Program-made: the position numbers and the translations under genes | IMG/VR virus record: IMGVR_UViG_3300047300_000523 | Location: 1 to 41,885 of that record | Source of the DNA: a virus | DNA: 41,885 nt | Strand: one strand, 5' to 3' | Notes under the pieces: model-generated | The model's input: only the letters and a program-made list of their open reading frames with translations | Told to the model about the DNA's origin: nothing | Databases searched by the model: none | Part shown: positions 14,511-33,453 of the stretch, piece after piece | Numbering within the stretch: the first letter of the stretch is position 1 | How the letters are laid out: each line of letters opens with the position of its first letter

Positions 14511-15221
14511 ATGGGAATGGGAAAATCATCAGGTAGCAGTTCGGCAACATTAACGCCTGAACAAAAAGACCTTCTATCGCTTCAAACGAATGCGTTAAAA
14601 CAAACCTTTCTTCCAGCTTACGAAAACACCATTGGCGGTGCTAATGCGGTTTTGCGTGATGTTCAGCCTTACCAAAATCAAGCGGCTAAAAATGCTTTTA
14701 CTCAAGCAGGACAGGTTTCTGGTGAATCTGTAACTGGCGCTCGAAACATGATCAATGCGGGTACAAATACTTTGACCCAATTGTTCAGCCCTGATTACGA
14801 ATCAAACCAAATTAATGCCGCCTTGCAAGCAGGTCGTGAATCTGCCCGTGAATCACAAGCAGGTCAAAATGCTATGTATGGCGCAGCAGGTGGCTTGGGT
14901 TCATCACGCATGGCTTTGGCTGACAAGAACTTGGCATCTTTGAATGCTCAACGTCAAGCTACTGCAGCTGCTGGTGCACAAGCTCAAGTGCAACAAAACC
15001 GCATGGCTGCTGCCAACTCTATGTTGGGTTCAGGTCAAAACTTGCTCAATACTGGTTTGGGAGCCGCAAGCCAACAAGTCGGTTATTCAACTGCACCCAT
15101 GGACTTGTATGGCAAATATGCCAGTATCGTTTATGGCACACCCCAAGCTTCTACTACGCCTAACTTCTCTGGCACTCAAGGTTCTACAACCTCTGGCAAG
15201 GGCATGGGCTTTAAACTTTAA
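14511..15221 (+). CDS. Putative internal virion / DNA ejection protein
   Basis: A 236-residue protein rich in A, Q, N and G. The core from about 15 to 185 is helical, with AAGGLGSSRMALADKNLASL around residue 125 and Ala/Gln-rich helices after it. Short Ala-rich proteins in this slot between the tail genes and two longer soluble proteins match the ejection-protein set of P22-like phages (gp7, gp20, gp16 class) in size order and position. Identity is not certain. GGAG lies 8 bases before the ATG. Confidence 0.55.
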   Translation: MGMGKSSGSSSATLTPEQKDLLSLQTNALKQTFLPAYENTIGGANAVLRDVQPYQNQAAKNAFTQAGQVSGESVTGARNMINAGTNTLTQLFSPDYESNQINAALQAGRESARESQAGQNAMYGAAGGLGSSRMALADKNLASLNAQRQATAAAGAQAQVQQNRMAAANSMLGSGQNLLNTGLGAASQQVGYSTAPMDLYGKYASIVYGTPQASTTPNFSGTQGSTTSGKGMGFKL

Positions 15222-26067: not shown

Positions 26068-26247
26068 ATGAACATCGAACTTATTGAAGAAGACTGCGCA
26101 GAAGCCTTATTGGCCTATGCTTACAACCTGGTTATCACCTATAACCAACATCCTGGCGACACAGATGCTGCCATGATCGGCCTTATTGCTCGGGCATTAG
26201 AGCTTCATGTAGAAAAACCAATCAACATTTCAGGAATGTATCAATGA
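26068..26247 (+). CDS. Small helical protein, first gene of the plus early block
   Basis: A 59-residue, acidic, helical protein (MNIELIEEDCAEALLAYAYN...). No Shine-Dalgarno is clear, so initiation may be weak or leaderless-like. It overlaps the next start by ATGA. Unknown role. Confidence 0.55.
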   Translation: MNIELIEEDCAEALLAYAYNLVITYNQHPGDTDAAMIGLIARALELHVEKPINISGMYQ

Positions 26248-26612
26248 CGCAAGCAAGAATTCTTTTGGCTTTACAAGATGGTCCTAAGACATCTCATGAA
26301 ATAGCCGAAATTACTGGCATGACGCAAGCCACAGTAATTTCTACTGCAAGAAAACTCCGCACTCAAGGCAAGATAACTTCCTCACTGGTTAAGTCTGGCA
26401 AGTATCATATTGCTCAATTTACCCTGACAGAAGAAAAAGTGTATGTAAGTGACAATGGTGTAAAAATTATTTGTGGCATTCCAACTTACGGAATCTTTAC
26501 ACCTGCTGAGTATCGGGTGATGAATGCTCAAGCTCGTAAATTGAACGCGCCTAATCCACAATTCACTACCTATTCAAAGGCAAAAACAAGTGAAAACAGC
26601 AGACAAATTTGA
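26244..26612 (+). CDS. Winged-helix transcriptional regulator
   Basis: A 122-residue protein. Residues 1-55, ARILLALQDGPKTSHEIAEI then TGMTQATVISTARKLRTQGK and ITSSLVKSGKYHIAQFTL, form a classic winged helix: two helices, a recognition helix, then beta wing. The C-terminal 50 residues are different and may sense something or dimerise. As the second gene behind the palindrome at 26015 it is a good candidate to bind it. Coupled to the gene before by ATGA. Confidence 0.75.
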   Translation: MTQARILLALQDGPKTSHEIAEITGMTQATVISTARKLRTQGKITSSLVKSGKYHIAQFTLTEEKVYVSDNGVKIICGIPTYGIFTPAEYRVMNAQARKLNAPNPQFTTYSKAKTSENSRQI

Positions 26613-26787
26613 TCCCGCTATTCAGTGCGAGGGTAAGCATCCTTTCCCTACATTCACTGTTGCTGAAGCAACCATTAGTAAAAAAAGAGATGGGTCATTT
26701 CAAATTTATAAATGCCCACATTGTGCATTTTTTCACATTGGGCATTCAACAACCAAGTTTAGGAACTTGAAACGAGGACCGAAATAG
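26590..26787 (+). CDS. Small zinc-finger-like protein
   Basis: A 65-residue basic protein with YKCPHCAFFHIGHST, a likely CCHH zinc site. The start is GTG at 26590, within the end of the regulator gene. Similar CPxCxxxHxGH proteins are common in phages; function unknown. Confidence 0.65.
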   Translation: MKTADKFDPAIQCEGKHPFPTFTVAEATISKKRDGSFQIYKCPHCAFFHIGHSTTKFRNLKRGPK

Positions 26788-26800
26788 GTCATAATGGTTT

Positions 26801-26868
26801 GAAACACCGGCTAGATGTGGCCTGATCTCCACATCGAAAAGCGAGCCTCCCCGCCTGCCGATTGTTTC
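26801..26868 (+). ncRNA. c4-like: Structured RNA resembling phage C4 antisense RNA
   Basis: An outer stem pairs GAAACA (26801-26806) and CGGC (26808-26811) with GCCG (26857-26860) and TGTTTC (26863-26868). An inner hairpin pairs GATGTGG (26814-26820) with CCACATC (26829-26835) round an 8-base loop. A short GCG/CGC stem (26841-26843 with 26852-26854) holds the loop AGCCTCCC. This nested layout and the CCTCCCC loop resemble C4 RNA of phages P1 and P7, which blocks translation of a gene on the same transcript. Here GAGGT, the Shine-Dalgarno of the replication gene at 26902, can pair with GCCTC in the loop, and GTGGA (26882-26886) with most of CTCCAC in the hairpin. No covariance check was possible. 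Confidence 0.6.
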
Positions 26869-26901
26869 TTTGTGTCAGAGGGTGGACTGTGCGAGGTTAT
26901 T

Positions 26902-27621
26902 ATGCTTTTACAGCCTAAAAATTGGGCCGTCTTTCAACATTACAAAGACCGCTGCCCACCATGGATCAAACTTCATCGTGACCTGTTAAACGACAGAGTT
27001 TTTATGCGCTTGCCTATTGCTAGCAAGGCGCTAGCACCAATGCTTTGGTTACTTGCAAGTGAATCAAAAGATGGTGTTTTTGATGGCTCACTAGATGAGC
27101 TAGTCTTTCGATTACATATTTCAGAAAAAGAATACAGAGATGGCCTTAAACCATTGATTGATAACGACTTTTTTGTACTTGTTAGCGGAGTGCTAGCAGA
27201 CCGCAAGCAAAATGCTATCCCAGAGACAGAGAGAGAGGGAAAGGCAAAGAAAGAGAAAGAGAAAGAGACAGAAGCGCCTGAAGGCGTGTCGTTAGAAGTT
27301 TGGGAATCTTTTGTAAAACAAAGAAAAGCAAGAAAAGCTCAAATTACTGATCGGGTGATGAATTCGATTAAAGAGCAAGCCAAGATTGCTGGATGGACTT
27401 TGGAAAATGCTTTGAGTGAAATTGTCATAAGAAATTGGCAAACATTTAAAGCTGATTGGGTTGTGACCAAGCCAAACCCTGCCGACATTGCAAGGGTCAC
27501 AGTGCCTCCATCCAAAAAAGCAGATGAAGCCTTAATCAAGATTTTGGAAGACGAAAAGAAAGCAGCACCTATTCCGGATTCTGTTCGTGAATTTATTGCT
27601 AAAAATCGGAGACAAGCATGA
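26902..27621 (+). CDS. Replication-initiator-like protein (phage O/DnaD-like class)
   Basis: A 239-residue protein. MLLQPKNWAVFQHYKDRCPP and WIKLHRDLLNDRVFMRLPIA, with DELVFRLHISEKEYRDGLKP, are the winged-helix N-terminal domain seen in many phage replication proteins that open the origin. A charged linker (about 118-140, Lys/Glu-rich) leads to a C-terminal helical domain with WTLENALSEIVIRNWQTFKA, a DnaD/DnaB2-like helicase-loader pattern. The ATG at 26902 has GAGG five bases before it. An in-frame ATG at 26815 lies inside the C4-like hairpin and is rejected. Translation is probably set by that RNA. Confidence 0.65.
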   Translation: MLLQPKNWAVFQHYKDRCPPWIKLHRDLLNDRVFMRLPIASKALAPMLWLLASESKDGVFDGSLDELVFRLHISEKEYRDGLKPLIDNDFFVLVSGVLADRKQNAIPETEREGKAKKEKEKETEAPEGVSLEVWESFVKQRKARKAQITDRVMNSIKEQAKIAGWTLENALSEIVIRNWQTFKADWVVTKPNPADIARVTVPPSKKADEALIKILEDEKKAAPIPDSVREFIAKNRRQA

Positions 27622-32805: not shown

Positions 32806-33453
32806 TTAAATTTGCTTCAGTTTGATAACCCGTGCCATTTTCTGGCCGTGGGCTGGGTATGCGATTAGCGGCACGTTTTTATCCCAGCAAGCGCGGCAGC
32901 CGTTACAGTTACCGCCATGTTTGTATGCTTCGCAAAGCTTCACCCCTTCACGCGCTTGGGATGTATCGGCAGTGGGCCCGATAACTGAGCCGTGCAAACC
33001 TTCGATATATTCGCCTTGGATAGAATCACTGGAAAAACGAACCTTCACGTTTGGCAAAGCTTCCATTTGAGCAAAAACGTGGGCAAACTTTGGGAATTTA
33101 TGCATACGGGTTGGCAGCCAGTGATTGCACCATGGGGTTCTAATCATCACTTCCAAGATTTTCTCAGCAAGGCCCAAAGTGTAAACGTCTCCAGAATCAA
33201 ACCAACGAAAATATCGGTCCTGATCTAATTCGTTGACCATTTCATCCACCCACTGGAGCCGCTGCCAATCTTCCCGATTAGATAACCTTGGGGCCTTCAC
33301 GTTTGGGTAATTGTAATTCCCCGTGGTTGCATAGCATCCCTTGCACGCGTCTACTAGTTCACCAGGCGCGGCCCATGAGCCGGGACAAGTATCCAAAGCT
33401 TGAAGGCTCCACGAACGTGCATTAAGTTTGGAAGTTTGAGAAATTTTGATCAT
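32806..33453 (-). CDS. Gp88-like Cys-rich protein
   Basis: A 215-residue protein. CPGSWAAPGELVDACKGCYA near residue 23 and CEAYKHGGNCNGCRACWD near 175 hold many Cys, likely ligands for a metal or Fe-S cluster. RYFRWFDSGDVYTLGLAEKI and WLPTRMHKFPKF lie between. This order resembles the mycobacteriophage gene product 88 family, of unknown function. It has A-GGTG ahead of its start, in a leader shared with the gene at 33813. Its codon use differs somewhat from the late genes. Confidence 0.65.
   Translation of the reverse strand: MIKISQTSKLNARSWSLQALDTCPGSWAAPGELVDACKGCYATTGNYNYPNVKAPRLSNREDWQRLQWVDEMVNELDQDRYFRWFDSGDVYTLGLAEKILEVMIRTPWCNHWLPTRMHKFPKFAHVFAQMEALPNVKVRFSSDSIQGEYIEGLHGSVIGPTADTSQAREGVKLCEAYKHGGNCNGCRACWDKNVPLIAYPAHGQKMARVIKLKQI

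Follow-up and report, generated by a model that had tools for sequence, protein, structure and literature searches.

The window analysed here, a 41,885-nt stretch of viral DNA, carries a structured RNA immediately in front of a gene for a replication-initiator-like protein. We consider it likely that this element is a C4- or CI-like antisense RNA by which the phage brakes translation of its own replication initiator. The original prediction of a switch on replication, rather than on an antirepressor, is well supported by the covariation of an RNA loop with its targets in many phages and by the identity of the target as a replication gene.

The RNA element and its genomic setting

The element spans positions 26801–26870 on the plus strand and is predicted to serve both as an antisense small RNA and as the 5' leader of the rep mRNA. 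Its assignment as an int-alpA-like structure with three helices (P1, P2 and P3) is based on matches to the covariance models RF02996 (31.4 bits) and R1 (75 bits), along with helix covariation. P1, which closes P2 and P3, is formed by 26801–26806 with 26863–26868 (GAAACA/UGUUUC) and by 26808–26811 with 26857–26860 (CGGC/GCCG). The fold places the P2 hairpin at 26814–26835 (stem 26814–26820/26829–26835, GAUGUGG/CCACAUC) and the P3 stem at 26841–26843/26852–26854 (GCG/CGC), all on the plus strand. The P2 loop, CCUGAUCU at 26821–26828, contains the palindrome GAUC (26824–26827). Taken as a single sequence, the window element shows only a modest gain in folding energy over its shuffles (z −1.77, 8/200).

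The nested stems proposed for this location were confirmed by the fold and by covariation in 42 relatives, in whose alignment 98.9% of cells are paired over the same three helices. Ten of the 13 pairs vary on both sides, with 90 compensated cells, a result equalled by none of 500 shuffles; sliding the structures along the alignment reduces pairing to 35–58%. Covariance model R1, built from 42 long-P2 relatives with the window left out, matches the window at 26797–26873 (75 bits, E 6.5e-20). Here, long-P2 denotes elements with 20 nt between CUAG and CGAAAAG, as against 10–11 nt in most canonical int-alpA RNAs. The structure counts were taken from the long-P2 set and from anchored positions; a joint MAFFT alignment of long and short forms misplaced the CTAG in short-P2 elements. 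R1 found a single copy per contig in the 26 contigs tested, and a second match in the window, at 33001–33069 (14.1 bits, E 0.19), was dismissed as being at chance level. Five pattern matches elsewhere (L170, L177, L190, L199 and L200) were likewise excluded as chance matches.

Conservation extends to the position of the element. Among 80 fetched viral contigs encoding relatives of rep (57–85% identical), it lies directly before the rep ATG in all 80. A search of the 281-bp region for DNA similarity to phage records returned nothing relevant, and among phages that are cultured or complete and have a related rep or DUF1376 gene (Limnohabitans DC33, Iodobacter PhiPLPE, Cylindrospermopsis Cr-LKS3, ctEw122, Methylophilaceae P19250A, Vibrio 1.052.A, Bordetella IFTN2 and others), none was found to carry a long-P2 element. 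R1 was run on four fetched records with rep homologues, and the other phages were inspected visually in the region preceding the gene. The DUF1376 gene of L329 (MW202520.1) is preceded by a leader of another type, in which a long inverted repeat and a T run come before the start codon, and it may be controlled through this leader in some other way.

In the window, the element follows two genes on the same strand, an HTH (ArsR/MarR-like) gene (26244–26612) and a small gene (26590–26787). The end of the latter is overlapped by a sigma-70-type promoter on the plus strand (TTGAAA-17-CATAAT, 26767–26795), which has 10 of 12 consensus matches and is the sole match in 26600–27000. The distance from the −35 and −10 boxes to CTAG is constant in 68 distinct long-P2 elements, and with the boxes at fixed positions, the first base of P1 (about 26801) is the predicted transcription start. 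No intrinsic terminator was called behind P1 in the window. In another contig, L093, a hairpin resembling an intrinsic terminator (CCGCCTTCGGGCGGTTTTTTT) directly follows target site 1, which is consistent with a stand-alone small RNA.

The structured RNA ends 30 nt short of the rep ATG at 26902. The rep gene (26902–27621, plus strand, 239 aa), which would be the regulated gene, had been read as replication-initiator-like, and its protein does match phrog_26426 (replication protein, E 2.3e-31) and phrog_678 (replication initiation O-like, E 4.8e-15). The window also encodes SU10-type portal and capsid domains.

Family membership

Rfam at its gathering thresholds gave no match in the window. 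With the thresholds relaxed, int-alpA RNA (RF02996) clearly outscored every other family, matching 26804–26881 with 31.4 bits (E 7e-5) against a cutoff of 35.8 bits. The alignment is full-length (model positions 1–71) and includes the CUAG, CGAAAAGCG and CGCCUG motifs and all three helices. RF02996 also matches 31 of 32 long contigs with related elements, seven of them above the cutoff; the long-P2 elements score 23–39 bits, mostly 23–36, and two long-P2 relatives, L012 and the record of L147, pass it (37.6 and 38.8 bits). Given this best match and the matches in related contigs, the window element is, by its sequence, a divergent, below-cutoff member of int-alpA, belonging to a long-P2 branch.

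The int-alpA family was reportedly defined by Weinberg et al. in 2017. Its name refers to a location between integrase and alpA genes; the window has no integrase, and the neighbours of the element are the HTH gene, the small gene and rep. Members that pass the RF02996 cutoff are also found before other genes, and the integrase/alpA context is a naming feature. One phage contig, the record of L153, carries two int-alpA matches (G033:9059–9131 and 14884–14950), possibly two independent switches.

The element had originally been described as C4-like, and the lack of a match to the C4 covariance model had been named as one result that would speak against this. The C4 model (RF01695, cutoff 45 bits) has no match at E ≤ 10 in 26700–27000, nor any in the whole window, although it does detect the positive controls, P4 CI (74.9 bits) and P1 C4. 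Membership of the C4 family is therefore ruled out. The gene context also differs, since the next gene is replication-initiator-like and neither an icd/ant antirepressor operon nor a P4-like operon lies downstream. What stands of the original description is the architecture, with P1 enclosing two hairpins and the loop of the second facing the next ribosome-binding site. That the window element works like a C4 RNA, despite not being one, is well supported.

Covariation of the P3 loop with two downstream sites

The P3 loop (AGCCUCCC, 26844–26851, plus strand) is identified as the antisense segment by loop–target covariation across the family. It differs between phages, and two sites downstream of P1 change to match it: the loop CCCACUU is accompanied by AAGUGG and AAAGUGG, GUCUCCC by GGGAGA and GAGAC, UUCACCCUUU by AAAGGG and GGUGAA, and CGUUAC by GUAACG and AACG. 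Site 1 ends approximately 20 nt before the start codon, and site 2 approximately 7 nt before it, on the Shine-Dalgarno sequence. The sites are mostly 12–15 nt apart and their pairings use 4–6 loop nucleotides in common, so that one RNA could hold only one site at a time.

Among homologous rep genes, which carry nine loop types, the pairing energy was −9.3 kcal/mol for cognate and −7.1 kcal/mol for permuted pairs (8/100,000). The sample was then widened by 120 further pattern matches in viral contigs to 36 loops with no common 6-mer. The longest Watson-Crick run between a loop and its own downstream region averaged 6.08 bp, against 4.11 bp with the regions of others, and 4.81 against 3.43 bp at a second, non-overlapping site. 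Neither difference between own and swapped targets was reached in 100,000 permutations (z 12.3 for the best site and 12.2 for the second), and a control region upstream of the element gave a run of only 4.08 bp. The non-cognate pairs control for the pairing expected of a pyrimidine-rich loop and a purine-rich target.

The same signal is present in int-alpA copies from bacterial genomes, where, among the matches listed, own targets exceeded swapped ones with z 7.7 and 8.8. The canonical int-alpA members L097 and L181 likewise have two complementary sites. A set of pattern matches that fail a strict P1/P2 test, used as a control, also keeps the signal; it is not a clean negative control, probably because it includes true members.

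Complementarity of the loop to two co-varying downstream sites is thus a property of the family, and the match in the window itself is weak. Site 1 of the window (GAGGGUGG, 26878–26885, plus strand), recognised from its position in relatives, is degenerate: GGGUGG faces CCUCCC with a U-U mismatch, while the match is perfect in the close relatives L036 (GGGAGG) and L064 (GGAGG). Site 2 (GAGGUU, 26893–26898, plus strand) overlaps the Shine-Dalgarno sequence, as judged from its pairing, sequence and position in relatives. It pairs with 26844–26849 through six pairs, one of them G-U; this is the pairing of GCCTC with the Shine-Dalgarno GAGGT that had been foreseen, and it is present. Each site offers just four contiguous Watson-Crick pairs, and the case for the window therefore rests on its membership of the family. 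A further pairing, of CTCCAC with GTGGA, had been proposed as well. It involves the P2 stem and is not conserved in L080, a relative with the same target, and we regard it as a coincidence of the window sequence; the conserved partner of site 1 is the P3 loop.

The P2 loops show a regularity of their own. A 4-nt palindrome occurs in 46 of 56 distinct loops where 24 would be expected (sd 3.5), a count that is inflated by kinship among loops, and a 6-nt palindrome in 21 where 5.4 would be expected. Twelve of the 16 possible 4-nt palindromes are represented. The P3 loops have no such excess (12/92 against 22.7 expected). The palindromic sequences suggest that P2 loops could form kissing-loop dimers, and a homodimer of this kind, which would present one loop to each of the two sites, is an appealing possibility.

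Proposed action on replication and relation to known systems

In the mechanism that we propose, transcription from the element's own promoter would yield an RNA whose first 70 nt fold into P1, P2 and P3. Processing, or partial termination in the U-rich stretch that follows P1, could then free a 5' piece to serve as the antisense RNA. Through its P3 loop this RNA would pair with either of the two sites on rep mRNA made by read-through, of which site 2 is the Shine-Dalgarno sequence. Translation of the initiator would be blocked, and transcription might also be allowed to terminate, as in P4. Phage DNA replication would in this way be self-limiting. Any relative whose loop is the same would be repressed in trans as well, and this would account for the different loop–target pairs found at closely related rep genes (79–80% identical). 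The P4 CI and P1 C4 RNAs offer precedents for such an antisense mechanism.

The loop might instead stay on the mRNA and fold onto site 1 or site 2, hiding the Shine-Dalgarno sequence until it is opened. The minimum-energy fold of the window leader does pair the P3 arm with both sites, so that action in cis would be possible in the window, and element and targets always lie on the same strand, 20–60 nt apart. Nevertheless, we hold this arrangement to be improbable. Across 56 leaders, the expected number of pairs was 1.81 with the own loop and 1.00 with swapped loops, but the own value was higher in only 30, so that the leaders have no general preference for their own loop in cis, and the window leader folds no more stably than its shuffles (z −0.15). 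The C4/CI architecture and the separate start of transcription at P1 are in keeping with a released RNA, and the two competing targets per loop, as in P4 CI, also speak against a purely internal switch. A very remote alternative is that the two downstream direct repeats and the inverted loop copy are DNA sites for a repressor protein, the RNA structure being incidental. Direct repeats with a spacing of 12–15 nt close to a promoter do resemble typical operators; however, the helices covary in 42 sequences with 90 compensated cells, P1 starts exactly at the transcription start, the unpaired loop faces the Shine-Dalgarno sequence, and both sites lie downstream of the start, independent of the P1/P2 sequences.

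The lifestyle of the carriers bears on another reading, in which the element is an ordinary int-alpA RNA for lysogeny control and serves a temperate phage as its immunity RNA, as in P4 or P1. The element belongs to the same family as the int-alpA RNAs of prophages, many of them in bacterial chromosomes; the looser short-P2 pattern has at least 120 matches in bacterial and archaeal genomes, and 7 of 22 contigs with mostly short-P2 elements encode a tyrosine integrase. The long-P2 pattern, in contrast, matches many viral contigs but has no match in 84,980 bacterial and archaeal genomes. Searches for a tyrosine integrase and for a serine recombinase were negative both for the window and for the other long-P2 contigs of 30–58 kb, which may be incomplete. 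No ParA was found among 22 contigs tested, and its absence from the long-P2 contigs tested argues in the same direction. We therefore judge the immunity RNA reading rather unlikely; the evidence points to virulent phages as carriers of long-P2 elements, with the reservation that contigs may be incomplete.

Among 73 distinct downstream proteins, 24 contain DUF1376 and 28 match a primosomal-protein PHROG; others match O-like, DnaD-like or further replication-initiation families, and HNH endonucleases, methyltransferases, Rha and, in a few cases, tail or portal proteins are also represented. The gene that follows a long-P2 element is mainly a replication gene, and the contexts of short-P2 elements are varied. 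Short-P2 elements with two matching sites (L093:4568, L106:9039, L102:12016–12055 and L117:482–520) precede other genes, including HNH, tail and portal genes, and so the device is not confined to early or immunity genes.

The window branch has in common with int-alpA RNA (RF02996) the three-helix plan and the conserved CUAG, CGAAAAGCG and CGCCUG. It differs in a P2 twice as long (20 nt compared to 10–11 nt), in the GAAAC/GUUUC outer part of P1, in preceding a replication gene and in having carriers without integrase. The Rfam model marks the 3' tail as unpaired and includes no target. Judging by the sequences, the int-alpA class as a whole appears to consist of antisense RNAs with two targets, although priority regarding the targets is uncertain. 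This gives a testable mechanism, in which the loop recognises two sites on the mRNA of the following gene, to an Rfam family characterised in the literature consulted here only by the names of its neighbours. Our analysis newly suggests that the long-P2 subgroup guards replication genes in phages that show no lysogeny module.

RNAs of the CopA/RNAI type are antisense brakes on plasmid replication, and CopA acts on an initiator gene. The window RNA would likewise brake replication; unlike these RNAs, which are transcribed from the opposite strand and are fully complementary to their targets, it lies on the same strand and matches through 4–9 nt of a loop. It is possible, though we offer this only tentatively, that int-alpA is a large family of small antisense RNAs, that its long-P2 members act in virulent phages, rather than in lysogeny, as a brake on the phage's own initiator and on co-infecting relatives with the same loop, that loop–target pairs diversify like incompatibility groups, and that a homodimer formed through the P2 palindrome could hold both sites. 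A loop and its two targets make up a small, interchangeable specificity module, of use in studies of superinfection and as orthogonal translational switches.

The C4 RNA of P1 and P7 (RF01695) likewise has a P1 enclosing two hairpins and an antisense loop in the second, directed at the ribosome-binding site of the gene that follows; according to a review, it blocks ant around its ribosome-binding site (PMC12197685). The window element has no sequence-structure match to the C4 model, its P2 loop is palindromic rather than of the UUCG type, and its target is a replication gene instead of the icd/ant operon. The CI RNA of P4, an Rfam C4 member (74.9 bits), shuts off the P4 replication operon (PMC4825925), and replication control by such an RNA is thus not unprecedented. 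As in the window family, one loop is complementary to two sites, and the P4 sequence has UUCACAGG in front of CI and UUCACAGGAGG behind it, on the Shine-Dalgarno sequence. The P4 sites lie one upstream and one downstream of CI (PMC4825925), whereas those of the window element are both downstream, 12–15 nt apart; and P4 CI acts in lysogeny, whereas the long-P2 carriers look virulent. C4/CI-type antisense control, previously a matter of a few coliphages, would thereby be extended to environmental phages in the hundreds, in most of which it would act on replication genes.
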